Assembly (NCBI GenBank): GCA_943354555.1
Contig: CALRCM010000010.1
Coordinates: 1-32,040, forward strand
Source: Candidatus Peribacteria bacterium
GTDB lineage: Bacteria; Patescibacteriota; Gracilibacteria; Peribacterales; Peribacteraceae
Reading direction: 5' to 3'
DNA length: 32,040 nucleotides
Shown here: one piece after another, positions 11,161-30,664 of the stretch
How the letters are laid out: each line of letters starts with the position of its first letter
How positions within the stretch are numbered: the stretch's first letter is position 1
The notes under the pieces: generated by a model
What the model was told of the DNA's origin: nothing
Database searches by the model: none
The model's input: only the letters and a program-made list of their open reading frames with translations
Made by a program: the position numbers and the translations under genes

Positions 11161-13365
11161 TCACAATCCGATACTTGCAGAGGCTCCCTTCATTGCTTCA
11201 AGAGTAATGCCCACAAATTCGTCGAGTGGGATCCCCAATAATGTGTCGCATTGTTTGATCTGTTCACGATCGACCTGTGCTGCGAAGGATTTATCCTTTA
11301 GTTTCTTGGTCACGCTCTTTACTTCGACATCGGCGATCTTCTTACTTGGCCTAACGTACGTCACCGCGATGATAAAGCCCGTAAGCTCGTCGACACAGTA
11401 GAGGCATTTTCGCAGCATCGTATCCAGTGGATACGTAGCTCCATACTTGCTCTGGTAGTGTGCACGGATATCCCCGAGGAGCTCATCCGGCGCCTTTATT
11501 GTCTTCAGAAGATGAGCAAGTGTGTCTCCGCAGTGCGCTTCATAGTCTTTGTCGAGCTTGTCCCAGTCGAGATCATGGAGCATGCCGGCGACTTTCCACG
11601 TCTGCGAGTCTCCACCGAATTTTTTGGCGAGGGCTTCCATTGCGGCACCTGTCGCAACAAGATGAGCACGGGTCTGGTCTGTATGTTCTTCCAAAAGTCC
11701 ATGTGCAGCAGGAAGAAGATGGCCGTAGTCGGCGTGCTGGAGGAGGGGAGTGGTAGATGCATCCATAGGTGTGGTTGAAGAAGACGAAGAAGACGAAGAA
11801 GACGAAGAGGACGAAGAGGACGAAGAGGACGAAGAGGAATCCGTCTTTTTATTCTTCTTCGTCTTTTTCGTCCTATTATCAATATTTTTATTACCATCTT
11901 CCTGCTTTCCCAACGGCTTCATGAGCGGGAACAGCACCACATCCCGCAAATTACTTTGCTGCGTAAGAAGGGCCACGATACGGTCGATGCCCATGCCCCA
12001 GCCCGAACACGGTGGGCAGCCGTACGAGAGTGCTGTGACGAAGTCATCGTCTTTACGATGTGCGTCTCCGTCCCCGCCGGCCGAAGCTTTGGCTTGCTGG
12101 GAAAATCGCTCGTCTTGGTCGACGGGATCGACGAGCTCGCTATAGGCGTTAACGATTTCCCATCCTCCGACGACGAGCTGGAAGCGGTCGGTGATGAGTG
12201 GGTTTTCATCATTGCGGCGCGCAAGAGGGGAGAGATCGATCGGGTGACCGGTGATAAATGTCGGTTGGATGAGCTTTGGACGGCTGACCTTCTTATATAA
12301 CTGGTCGATGAGATTTCCGCGTCCGAGTTTTTCTACGGGGACATCGAGCTGTATCCATTTTTCTTTCATGGCTCGTCGGAGATCATCTGCAGTGGTACAC
12401 GTGTCAAAGTCGATGCCACAAGATTGAAGGATCGCTTCCCTGAGTGTTAGGCGGGGCCACGGGGGTTGGAAGTGGACCTCGGTGAGCTTCCCTTCACGAT
12501 CGGGGATTTTTACGGATGTTGTCCCGAGGAGCTCTGTCAGAACGGATTGCAGCATCTGCTCCGTAAATGCCATGTTGCGCTGGTAGTCCCAGTATGCAGC
12601 GTAGTGCTCGACCATGGTGAAATCTTGGAGATGTGATGGATCCAGTCCTTCATTGCGAAAGACCCGTCCAAGTTCAAAGACTCTGTCGAAACCTCCAACG
12701 AGACATTCCTTTAAATACGTTTCAGGGGCGATGCGCAGGTAGACATCAAGATCGTATGCGGCGTGGTGCGTTTGGAATGGTGATGCAAGTGCACCCGATG
12801 CGGCGTTGGTAAGGATGGGCGTTTCCATCTCCAAAAATCCGTGTTGCCAATAAAATTCCCGGATCTTGCGTATGAAATTACTACGAAAGGTGAAGCGTTC
12901 GAGAGTCGCGCGGTTGCTTAGAAGATCGAGATACCGCTGGCGCCAGAGCGTTTCCTGATCTGCGACTCCATGCCATTTCTCCGGCGGTTGACGGAGTGAT
13001 TTACTGAGCATCTGCAGCGTTGTGACAAGCACTGTCGGCTCGCCTTTTTGTGTCGTGAATCTCTCACCCGCAATACCGACGATGTCTCCAAGATCGATGG
13101 ATTTCATCGCATCCTTATAGATTTCTTTCCCGAGACGGTCTTCCTGCAAAAGAATCTGCACTCTGCCTGTGTGATCCTGGATCTGCCCGAATGCCATTTT
13201 TCCCATGTCGCGCCACAGCATGATCCGTCCCGCAATAGTTGCTGTTGTTCCGTCAGCAATGGAAGGGATTTCACTCGCTGTATGTGTTCGTTCAAACCGT
13301 GCAGCGTAGGGATTGATGCCCCGCTTGCGCAGCTCCGCTACTTTTTTGAGACGAAAGGGATCCAT
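11161..13365 (-). CDS. lysS: Lysyl-tRNA synthetase (class II) fused through poly-Ser to a C-terminal HD-domain hydrolase
   Basis: MDPFRLKKVAELRKRGINPYAARF; motif 2 FELGRVFRNEGLDPSHLQDFTMVE; motif 3 GWGMGIDRIVALLTQQSNLRDVVLFPLMKP. Then KTKKNKKTD-S21-TTP, then an HD domain (TRAHLVATGAAMEAL, WKVAGMLHDLDWDKL, CLYCVDELTGFIIAVTYVRPSKKI). Confidence 0.93.
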   Translation of the reverse strand: MDPFRLKKVAELRKRGINPYAARFERTHTASEIPSIADGTTATIAGRIMLWRDMGKMAFGQIQDHTGRVQILLQEDRLGKEIYKDAMKSIDLGDIVGIAGERFTTQKGEPTVLVTTLQMLSKSLRQPPEKWHGVADQETLWRQRYLDLLSNRATLERFTFRSNFIRKIREFYWQHGFLEMETPILTNAASGALASPFQTHHAAYDLDVYLRIAPETYLKECLVGGFDRVFELGRVFRNEGLDPSHLQDFTMVEHYAAYWDYQRNMAFTEQMLQSVLTELLGTTSVKIPDREGKLTEVHFQPPWPRLTLREAILQSCGIDFDTCTTADDLRRAMKEKWIQLDVPVEKLGRGNLIDQLYKKVSRPKLIQPTFITGHPIDLSPLARRNDENPLITDRFQLVVGGWEIVNAYSELVDPVDQDERFSQQAKASAGGDGDAHRKDDDFVTALSYGCPPCSGWGMGIDRIVALLTQQSNLRDVVLFPLMKPLGKQEDGNKNIDNRTKKTKKNKKTDSSSSSSSSSSSSSSSSSSSSSTTPMDASTTPLLQHADYGHLLPAAHGLLEEHTDQTRAHLVATGAAMEALAKKFGGDSQTWKVAGMLHDLDWDKLDKDYEAHCGDTLAHLLKTIKAPDELLGDIRAHYQSKYGATYPLDTMLRKCLYCVDELTGFIIAVTYVRPSKKIADVEVKSVTKKLKDKSFAAQVDREQIKQCDTLLGIPLDEFVGITLEAMKGASASIGL
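11777..11839 (-). repeat. 9-bp imperfect tandem repeat (TCTTCGTCY)n encoding 21 consecutive serines
   Basis: Plus strand gaagaagac gaagaagac gaagaagac gaagaggac gaagaggac gaagaggac gaagagga. Confidence 0.95.
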
Positions 13366-13441
13366 AAGCGTTGCCAGAATAGCGTTTTTTCTGCGGTAGT
13401 CATATGTGATCGTTCTGTGGCGGACGGAGGTCGGTTTACAC

Positions 13442-14767
13442 ATGATATGGTTACTCTTTGTTACACTGGCGTTCATGTTCCGTGTTCAGCGTGTATGTCA
13501 TTGGTGCACCATGCTTATTCTCATGGTCTTCATCGCAGAAGCTGGGAGTTTTTTTGCATTGTCGATCATTCAGCGTGAGTTGTATTCCCTCCGCGACATA
13601 GAAGCAGCGCGACAGAAAAGAACAGGGGAAGAAAACATGATACCTCTCGAGGAGAAGGTTGATATCACCGCTAGTTTTGGTGAAGAACCAACTTCCCTTC
13701 ATCCCTATCTTGGGTTTTCTCTGACTCCACGAGTAGACGAACAGATTGGCTCTGGTACGGTCACCATGGATGAAATCGGGTTTTCCCCCTATGGAGGAGA
13801 GGTCTTCCGTTCAAGGGATCCGGATACTGTCATTGTGGGAATCGTTGGCGGATCCGTTGCCCATAATTTCGGGGCAGGAAACGGCGCCACTATTCTTTCG
13901 CAGATGTTGCAGCGGGATGAGCACTTCAAAGGAAAAGCATTTCGCTTTACGACAATGGCACTCGGCGGCTACAAGCAGCCACAGCAATTGATTGCGCTCA
14001 ACTATCTCCTCGTACTTGGGGCACAGTTTGATATCGTCATTGACCTCAGCGGTTTCAATGAAGTGACACTACCCTTCCACGAAAATATCCCTGTTGGTTT
14101 GCATCCCCTCTATCCGAGAAGTTGGCATTTGCTTGCTGGAGATCTTTCCTCCCATCATCTGGGTCTCATTGGGCGTATTGCTTGGCTCCGTCAACTTCGC
14201 AGTACTATTGCACAGTGGAGCAGATGGGGGATTTGTAATAAGAGTTATGTCTGTGGATTGGTATGGCATGTCTTCGACCATGGCATAGCGCAGGGTATAC
14301 TTTCGGCGAATGTCGCATTGATGATTCCTGATGGCGACGAAGGTGTAGATCCTATGTTTGCCGGTCCACCGTATGGCAAAAGTGGTACGGGTGCTGCTCT
14401 TAAAGTGATCGTAGCTAGCTGGAAAAACGGAGCGCAGCTTATGCAGGATCTCGGTCGGGCGCATAGTTTTCGTACATTCACATTCCTCCAGCCCAGTCCG
14501 TATTTTGGTAGTAAGCCGCGATCATCTCAAGAGCGTGAAATTCTTGTTCCTGGCAATTGGGCGGACATGCATGGTTCCCGGGGCTACCCGTTGCTGCAGG
14601 ATGCCGTAAAAGAGCTTGCGGATGCCGGATATTCTGCCGTTGATCTGACGGATGTTTTTCATGATCACCCCGAGCAGATCTACGTGGATTCCTGTTGCCA
14701 TGTTGGCGCTCGAGGTAATGAGATTCTTGCAGAGGCAATAGCAAGGGAGATTTTGAAAAGATGGTGA
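13442..14767 (+). CDS. Membrane-anchored SGNH/GDSL-hydrolase-like protein
   Basis: N-terminal hydrophobic segment MIWLLFVTLAFMFRVQ; block I-like VIVGIVGGSVAHNFGAGNG; C-terminal block V-like DSCCHVGARGNEILAEAIA. ORF track starts at 13406. Confidence 0.65.
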   Translation: MIWLLFVTLAFMFRVQRVCHWCTMLILMVFIAEAGSFFALSIIQRELYSLRDIEAARQKRTGEENMIPLEEKVDITASFGEEPTSLHPYLGFSLTPRVDEQIGSGTVTMDEIGFSPYGGEVFRSRDPDTVIVGIVGGSVAHNFGAGNGATILSQMLQRDEHFKGKAFRFTTMALGGYKQPQQLIALNYLLVLGAQFDIVIDLSGFNEVTLPFHENIPVGLHPLYPRSWHLLAGDLSSHHLGLIGRIAWLRQLRSTIAQWSRWGICNKSYVCGLVWHVFDHGIAQGILSANVALMIPDGDEGVDPMFAGPPYGKSGTGAALKVIVASWKNGAQLMQDLGRAHSFRTFTFLQPSPYFGSKPRSSQEREILVPGNWADMHGSRGYPLLQDAVKELADAGYSAVDLTDVFHDHPEQIYVDSCCHVGARGNEILAEAIAREILKRW

Positions 14768-26841: not shown

Positions 26842-28119
26842 ATGTTCACCTACCTCCGCCAACTCTGGCACTCTGAAGAACTCCGCAAGAGGATTCTTGT
26901 TACACTCGGTCTTCTTTTGGCATATCGCGTTGCCGCGCACATCTCCATCCCAGGGGCAGATTCTTTTGCCCTCAAACAGTTCCTCGACTCGCGCCAGGCC
27001 GGCGGTGTGATGGGGGTCTTTGCAGCACTTACCGGTGGTGCGCTCGATAACTTCTCCATCGTTCTTCTCGGACTTTCTCCGTACATCAATGCCAGCATTA
27101 TCGTACAGCTCTGTACCGTGATCTTCCCGAGACTCGAGGCACTAAGCAAAGAAGGAGTAAGTGGTCAGCAGACCATCAACCGCTATACGCGCTGGCTTAG
27201 TCTTCCGCTTACGTTCGTACAGAGCTATGGATTCCTCATCCTTCTCGGTCGTGGGGGCATCCAACTCCTCGACACATCGTTTCCCGCAGTCATCCTCCCG
27301 ATGATCTACGTGACTGCAGGGTCCATCTTCCTCATGTGGATCGGTGAGCTCATCACGGAGAAGGGCATCGGCAATGGTATCTCCCTTATCATCTTCGCCG
27401 GAATCGTCTCCGGAATGCCGGCTTCACTCAGCGCAATGTTTATCGCAGGGGAGGGGAAGCTTGCGGCGTTCTACCTCTTTGCCATCACTTCGATCGCTAT
27501 GCTTGTCGGTGTTGTGCTCTTTACCGACGCGCATCGTCTCATACCTATTACGTACGCTAACCAAGGATCCGGTCGCGGGGTACAGGCAAATATTCCGATT
27601 CGCTTAAACCAGGCAGGCATGATCCCAATCATCTTTGCAATCTCCCTCATCACCCTTCCTGCTATTTTTGCGCAGTTCCTTCAGACGGCGCCGCGCTTCG
27701 CCGGTGTTGTGCGTTTCATTACGACGTATCTCAATCCGCAGTCTCCTAGCTTCACGTACATCATTGGGTACTTCCTGCTCGTGATCGGCTTCACCTACTT
27801 CTACGTCTCCGTCACCTTCAAGCCCGATGAGCTTGCCGAGAGCATCCAGAAGCGTGGCGGCTTTATCCCCGGTATCCGCCCGGGTCGAGCAACTGCGGAG
27901 ATCCTTGCGAAAGTCAGTAACCGCCTGAATCTCTGGGGTGGTGTATTCCTTGGAATCGTTGCGGTCATTCCGCTTTTCTTTACGAAGTATTCCAATCTCT
28001 CGAGTCAGGATCTGCTCATCTCCGGATCAGGATTGATCATCATTGTCGGCGTCGTTATGGAATTGATTAGACAAGTGAATGCGCAGTTGCTTGCACATGA
28101 TTATGAGAAGTTGGTGTGA
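26842..28119 (+). CDS. secY: Preprotein translocase subunit SecY
   Basis: RVAAHISIPGAD, GLSPYINASIIVQL, GNGISLIIFAGIV, ANIPIRLNQAGMIPIIFA, RPGRATAEIL. Confidence 0.97.
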   Translation: MFTYLRQLWHSEELRKRILVTLGLLLAYRVAAHISIPGADSFALKQFLDSRQAGGVMGVFAALTGGALDNFSIVLLGLSPYINASIIVQLCTVIFPRLEALSKEGVSGQQTINRYTRWLSLPLTFVQSYGFLILLGRGGIQLLDTSFPAVILPMIYVTAGSIFLMWIGELITEKGIGNGISLIIFAGIVSGMPASLSAMFIAGEGKLAAFYLFAITSIAMLVGVVLFTDAHRLIPITYANQGSGRGVQANIPIRLNQAGMIPIIFAISLITLPAIFAQFLQTAPRFAGVVRFITTYLNPQSPSFTYIIGYFLLVIGFTYFYVSVTFKPDELAESIQKRGGFIPGIRPGRATAEILAKVSNRLNLWGGVFLGIVAVIPLFFTKYSNLSSQDLLISGSGLIIIVGVVMELIRQVNAQLLAHDYEKLV

Positions 28120-28164
28120 TGGTGTGGTGGTTTTGTGATTTCATGTCGCCCATCGCTTGCGGTA

Positions 28165-28186
28165 GAGACGGCACGTGTGCCGTCTC
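28165..28186. repeat. REP-like palindrome copy 1
   Basis: GAGACGGCAC-GT-GTGCCGTCTC, preceded by GTA. Confidence 0.85.
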
Positions 28187-28197
28187 CAATACGATTA

Positions 28198-28800
28198 TCA
28201 GGCCGGATCATTTGAGACGCCACGCGTGGCGTCTCTACGGGGATGCATCTGCATGAAATTCCGATCACGCTCCCATGTTCTTGGATTTTCCCGAATATAC
28301 GATCGTATATTTTCCAATGCACGGTCAGATCGAATAATGTGATCATAGAATCGGGTTTGCCATCCGAAATCATGGTGACCAATTTCATGAATGCGTTTTG
28401 TGGATGCGCCTTTAATGCGTCCGATGATAGAACCGATGGAAGATGGTTTTAATCGGGGAAGGGGGATGATTGTCGCGACATCGGTTGAGACGGCACAACG
28501 TGCCGTCTCTACAGGATCCACATTATCCCATGGGCAAATTTCTATGATGGCGTGCATATGATTCGGCATCACCACCCATTCATTCAGGATGATGTTTTGC
28601 CGAAGGCACGATGTGCGTGCAATTTCCTGTGCGACAATGCACCCCGCATCCGACAATCCCATTACCCCACTACGGATTTCTCCGAACCATGGATACTGGC
28701 CATGCGTACACGCCGTCACGAAATACATCCCCGCCTCCGCGTAATCCCGCCCTATGAGGCGCGCGGATTCCACCCGATAGCGATCGCGAAACATGGTCAT
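28198..28800 (-). CDS. REP-associated tyrosine transposase (RAYT; IS200/IS605-like Y1 transposase)
   Basis: Y1_Tnp features: AGMYFVTACTHGQ, NEWVVMPNHMHAIIEI (HUH), SIGSIIGRIKGASTKRIHE, WQTRFYDHIIRSDRALENIRSYIRENPRTWERD. Confidence 0.9.
   Translation of the reverse strand: MTMFRDRYRVESARLIGRDYAEAGMYFVTACTHGQYPWFGEIRSGVMGLSDAGCIVAQEIARTSCLRQNIILNEWVVMPNHMHAIIEICPWDNVDPVETARCAVSTDVATIIPLPRLKPSSIGSIIGRIKGASTKRIHEIGHHDFGWQTRFYDHIIRSDRALENIRSYIRENPRTWERDRNFMQMHPRRDATRGVSNDPA
28214..28235. repeat. REP-like palindrome copy 2, inside the RAYT ORF C-terminus
   Basis: GAGACGCCACGCGTGGCGTCTC; encodes RRDATRGVSN before the stop. Confidence 0.85.
28487..28509. repeat. REP-like palindrome copy 3, internal to the RAYT ORF
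   Basis: GAGACGGCACAACGTGCCGTCTC; encodes VETARCAVST. Confidence 0.85.
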
Positions 28801-28870
28801 CTACCGATGATCGTCGAGGTGGGACGGATTGTCAGCTGTACGTACGTCCACCCGAGGATACGTCGACCTC

Positions 28871-28898
28871 GTAGAGACGCCACGCGTGGCGTCTCTAC
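28871..28898. repeat. REP-like palindrome copy 4
   Basis: GTAGAGACGCCACGCGTGGCGTCTCTAC, perfect 28-bp palindrome. Confidence 0.9.
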
Positions 28899-30588: not shown

Positions 30589-30611
30589 GAGACGCAACAG
30601 CGTTGCGTCTC
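30589..30611. repeat. REP-like palindrome copy 5, upstream of adk
   Basis: GAGACGCAAC-AGC-GTTGCGTCTC followed by TAC. Confidence 0.8.
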
Positions 30612-30664
30612 TACCGCAGGCGATTGTCTTGCTTCATTTTGGAAAATTCTCGATTCTATGTTCG

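Follow-up and report, generated by a model that had tools for sequence, protein, structure and literature searches.

Quentin, Siguier, Chandler and Fichant (2018) described REPs inside the tnpA_REP genes of subclass 2.4, with the reading frame kept intact (PMC6006769). These insertions generally lie between the HuH motif and the catalytic tyrosine (Y), in a variable region placed away from the catalytic site, and involve double-foot REPs of the form GT[AG]G...C[TC]AC; the proteins are about 194 aa long and carry the motifs NH[IFV]H, WQ and YIxNNP (PMC6006769). According to the parts of two further papers drawn on here, REPs can occur within ORFs and at ORF ends and can supply stop codons (Di Nocera et al. 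2013, PMC3733652), and orthologous RAYTs of Pseudomonas and Stenotrophomonas can be flanked by different cognate REPs, a pattern called 'orthoswitch', with cis preference of RAYTs proposed in the same work (Nunvar et al. 2013, PMC3686654).

We analysed a 32,040-nt stretch of DNA (the window) from a Patescibacteria genome that is kin to Ca. Peribacteria/Peregrinibacteria. The features relevant to the present analysis are as follows.

26842-28119, forward strand: secY, convergent with the window RAYT gene; it also adjoins the orthologous RAYT in genome G001
28162-28186, forward strand: 3'-flanking REP (palindrome 28165-28186)
28198-28800, reverse strand: RAYT/TnpA_REP gene, 200 aa, with a match to Pfam Y1_Tnp
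28214-28238, reverse strand: REP at the 3' end of the ORF (palindrome 28214-28235), encoding RRDATRGVSN at the extreme C-terminus
28444-28533, reverse strand: variable loop of aa 90-119, modelled with low confidence, that links the HuH strand to the helix after it
28487-28512, reverse strand: internal in-frame REP (palindrome 28487-28509), with its GTAG foot on the coding strand
28807-28847, reverse strand: shared upstream element ACGTNCGTACAGCTGACAA (28829-28847) and sigma-70-like promoter
28871-28898, no strand assigned: 5'-flanking double-foot REP GTAGAGACGCCACGCGTGGCGTCTCTAC, also upstream of the orthologue L080
30589-30614, reverse strand: further REP of the same family (palindrome 30589-30611), intergenic, upstream of adenylate kinase

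The ORF at 28198-28800 is a REP-associated tyrosine transposase. It scored above the Pfam cut-off for Y1_Tnp (E 1e-7), while its match to NCBIfam REP_Tyr_transpos (E 4e-17, 62.6 bits) fell under the curated cut-off of 80, which is an annotation threshold and no biological definition. This second match was divided into two stretches, the best of which covered residues 120-173, past the loop. The HuH motif was located at N80-H81-M82-H83, WQ at 147-148, and the catalytic Tyr168 within YIRENP; H81, H83 and Y168 are invariant. Both by profile and by the fold of an AlphaFold model, the closest solved structure was 4er8, the E. coli REP-associated tyrosine transposase with a bound REP hairpin. GTAG-tagged REPs that are repeated across the genome flank the gene.

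The four palindromes listed by the initial annotation all lie where it had placed them, and its identification of the gene as a RAYT, of the two encoded peptides, and of an internal palindrome held in frame between the HuH histidines and the catalytic tyrosine was borne out; a further palindrome at 30589-30611, the fifth of the window, was missing from its list. On the coding strand the internal REP reads GTAGAGACGGCAC-GTT-GTGCCGTCTC, encoding VETARCAVS, and the palindrome as a whole corresponds to residues VETARCAVST (aa 97-106). The 3'-flanking REP and the REP at the ORF end are oppositely oriented and form an inverted doublet with a REPIN-like layout. In the AlphaFold model, the predicted order around the internal copy is strand 81-88, loop 89-121 and helix 122-139, with pLDDT of ~97 in the core, 53-66 in residues 90-119 and 60-73 in the C-terminal tail. 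Both coding REPs are thus predicted to lie in flexible parts of the protein, and the initial annotation was right to see a loop insertion in the internal palindrome.

Pattern searches of the 1.16-Mb genome returned 32 matches for GAGACGN{4,24}CGTCTC versus four for the reversed pattern. The class GTAGAGACG...CGTCTC with a GTAG foot occurred at ~30 distinct places versus none in the reversed control, so that the palindrome is not unique to this locus. Nearly all REPs of this genome are intergenic, the clear coding cases being its two RAYT genes of the same type; the second of these (C2:52594-53145) has a palindrome of another sequence at the corresponding place in its loop. A few other REPs fall inside ORFs without a supported gene or ahead of a likely true start. 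At adenylate kinase, for example, automatic ORF calls run across the REP at 30589-30614, and the Pfam ADK match begins after it. Elsewhere in the window (11161-13476), a 771-aa ORF was read by eye as having a lysyl-tRNA synthetase-like N-terminal part and an HD-domain-like C-terminal part, joined through a run of ~20 Ser.

RAYT loci were collected from 59 related genomes and from a one-genome-per-species scan of other Patescibacteria, Bacteroidota, Chloroflexota, Cyanobacteria and others, giving a sample of 110 non-redundant RAYT genes with HuH and Tyr motifs. None of the scan patterns covered the loop; they were placed in the HuH and WQ regions. A loop hairpin, defined as at least 9 bp between HuH and the following helix, was present in 79 of the 110 relatives, in a sample where most queries themselves bear REPs; codon-shuffled loops gave a mean of 0.6 (max 3). 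Hairpins elsewhere in the RAYT core were seen in five of the 110 genes. Although short palindromes do arise randomly, no result here points to chance or codon bias as the source of the internal palindrome; the excess over shuffled loops and the match to flanking copies described below refute this explanation, which retains virtually no credibility. In the same way, the 110 relatives rule out a unique local curiosity. A viral origin was also considered and set aside, relatives being found on only two viral contigs.

The site at which the relatives' REPs sit is the aa 90-119 loop of the window RAYT. Loops contain from zero to three hairpins, at several positions and in two phases. In 31 of the 110 relatives the loop hairpin is absent and the gene intact (for example L083, L102, L108, L109 and L140); a near-identical empty/filled gene pair for the loop site was not found among the compared loci. 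The GTAG foot contains TAG, and the 66 scorable loop REPs were distributed between GTA-G.. (54) and xGT-AG. (12), with none in the stop frame. On a tree built from 144 columns without the loop, in which support is weak and 55 of 107 inner branches are unresolved, a minimum of 23 changes in REP presence and eight in phase was counted. Single-hairpin loops comprised 11 with a single foot on the coding strand, nine with a single foot on the template strand and 41 double-foot cases. Nine loops held two or three hairpins, and in most of them a GTAG-tagged copy faced a CTAC-tagged one, which is the inverted doublet (REPIN) layout (L114, L120, L147, L157, L177 and L208). As a separate observation, an additional in-frame REP lies outside the usual loop of one RAYT, close to residue 34 (L123:1115-1142, locus reverse strand). 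The loops of some other RAYTs (L106, L130, L131, L132, L149, L152, L156 and L169) hold tandemly expanded short peptide repeats of up to >100 aa, some of which resemble pieces of REP-encoded residues.

The internal copy was found to resemble the REPs around its own gene. Across 36 loci, the mean similarity of the internal arm to the flanking REPs of the same gene was 0.93, versus 0.60 (sd 0.02) after permutation of the flanks. Among 18 disjoint nearest pairs, the internal arm fitted its own flank better in 15 and less well in one, with two ties (p = 5e-4), and within the GAGACG class the observed internal-flank match was reached in 0 of 5000 permutations. L080 is the orthologue of the window RAYT, and both genes are convergent with secY; between them, the internal and 3' REPs have altered together (GGCAC to GCACC), and the 5' REP is identical. 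The REP at the C-terminus of the window protein lies within an extra stretch that is absent from the orthologue (L080/L241) and that shifted the stop codon. Judged from this sequence comparison, it is a young insertion, the orthologue beside secY stopping before the REP.

At the six loci of the genus, the internal REP occupies the same site in the same phase and at the same length. Pairing is intact at each of the ten stem positions in every one of the six sequences, with compensated changes on both sides at four of them. The encoded peptide varies at the same time (ARCA, HRWC, HCQC, QRCC). As the peptide shifts along with the paired stem, it is the DNA palindrome that has been kept, not the peptide. 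In relatives, VETxxxxVS-type residues go with palindromic DNA, and the outcome that the initial annotation had named as contrary to its reading, homologues with these residues over non-palindromic DNA, did not appear. Its suggestion that the REP had been exapted is not favoured for a required protein segment, given the intact relatives without the palindrome and residues that follow the palindromic DNA. A single ancestral insertion, passed on by vertical descent and later homogenised by gene conversion among neighbouring REPs, with no repeated insertion, would account for the uniformity of the six genus loci. Across the wider family, however, loops hold from none to three hairpins at several positions, and the phase is one of two and has changed at least eight times; we regard such a history as unlikely.

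The explanation that we consider probable is that a RAYT of the subclass 2.4 kind inserts or exchanges cognate REPs and REPINs near its own gene, and that the protein tolerates such insertions in its loop and tail. The REPs inside and beside the window gene would then be cognate to its RAYT. By analogy with published work on E. coli and S. maltophilia, the enzyme would recognise single-stranded GTAG-tagged REP hairpins, and may relocate or swap REPs, singly or as inverted doublets, with a preference for sites close to its own gene. Insertions into the flexible loop from the HuH strand to the helix, or at the very C-terminus, would survive when the frame is kept, because the catalytic core is left untouched; the loop copy may subsequently decay, duplicate or be replaced in step with the flanking REPs. 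The comparisons establish position, frame, recurrence, flank match and compensation, and they support insertion, tolerance and concerted change; that the RAYT drives insertion and exchange, that it has a cis preference and that the loop copy serves no needed function we infer. Its absence in 31 of the 110 relatives and its varied positions and phases elsewhere fit repeated insertion and tolerance. Against this, an occupancy of ~70% together with perfect stems is high for an insertion that is merely tolerated, and given these two observations selection for the hairpin is possible.

If the internal REP were a kept regulatory element, the RAYT would bind the hairpin in its own mRNA or gene and limit its own expression. 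The high loop occupancy, the perfect and compensated stems, the tracking of the flanks by the internal copy and the stable RNA hairpin (the 61 nt around the internal REP fold at -23.7 kcal/mol, z -2.8) are all consistent with autoregulation of this sort, but a regulatory element sits poorly with the relatives that have no hairpin, with the mixture of coding-strand, template-strand and double-foot orientations, and with a position and phase that vary. To our knowledge, moreover, RAYTs are known for binding ssDNA, not RNA. We therefore hold autoregulation to be quite unlikely.

Upstream of the gene, a predicted sigma-70-like promoter (CTGACA-17-GATCAT, 28835-28807) overlaps ACGTNCGTACAGCTGACAA. 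Upstream of RAYT genes of the genus, this 19-bp element ends 27-28 nt from the start codon, and in some RAYT copies it is extended to the dyad TTGTCAnnTGTACGnnCGTACAnnTGACAA. At the same distance it precedes a ComF-like phosphoribosyltransferase gene, with no more than three mismatches, in four of five genomes, and the reversed pattern gave no matches; besides the window copy, it was located at L238, L239, L240 and L246. Other genera of the family yielded no match to its core, CGTACAGCTGACAA. A weaker variant with three mismatches, ACGTTTGTACACCTGACAA, was observed before a tRNA-like stretch (L242:1248, L243:1306, L244:1257) that was read by eye in L243 and was not called by ARAGORN or Rfam. 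With the element before RAYT and comF-like genes and its weaker copy before the tRNA-like stretch, a competence regulon is not claimed. ComFC handles single-stranded DNA in natural transformation of Helicobacter pylori, according to the part of the source used here (PMC9005727), and a link between the RAYT and DNA uptake is no more than a lead; the promoter element shared by RAYT and comF-like genes gives a clue to when this kind of RAYT is expressed. A more far-reaching reading treats the internal palindrome as an identity tag that selection retains: each RAYT would carry its cognate hairpin within its own coding sequence, selection on the hairpin, as ssDNA or mRNA, would override the encoded peptide, and in this genus a promoter element shared with a ComF-type gene that handles ssDNA would tie RAYT activity to DNA uptake. 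We rate this reading as very unlikely.

An in-frame REP in its own RAYT gene was already published in 2018 for subclass 2.4 (PMC6006769), so that the novelty attributed to coding REPs by the initial annotation does not hold and the window case is a further instance. The correspondence with subclass 2.4 (group 4 of Bertels) lies in an in-frame REP between HuH and Y and in a variable beta3-alphaC insertion, the latter predicted for the window RAYT from its model. The motifs of the window protein are NHMH (M for I/F/V), WQ and YIRENP (E for N) in 200 aa, its close relatives having YIRNNP, and the double-foot REPs typical of the subclass are seen at 28871-28898 and in the 41 single-hairpin loops of relatives noted above. 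In the portions of PMC3733652 considered, intragenic GTAG/CGTC REPs are described from uvrA, recB and other unrelated genes, and not from the cognate transposase gene as in the window; Rickettsia palindromic elements, cited there, likewise lie in frame in coding genes but are spread over many unrelated ones, with no link to a transposase of their own described. Flank switching is shared with the RAYT/REP orthoswitch, whereas an internal REP is not described in the portions of PMC3686654 used. In the open-access papers searched, no precedent was found for a promoter element common to RAYT and comF-like genes, nor, in their main texts, for the co-turnover statistics and the Patescibacteria set. 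The host also differs, since a term search of PMC6006769 shows that Patescibacteria are not named there. The window locus thus supports, in Patescibacteria, a published oddity, namely transposase genes that contain their own recognition hairpins, and it goes beyond the description of subclass 2.4 in two respects, the concerted change of internal and flanking copies and the lengthening of the C-terminus by a REP. With this co-turnover, two usable frames and no copies in the stop frame, the question of how the specificities of RAYT and REP change jointly becomes directly testable.
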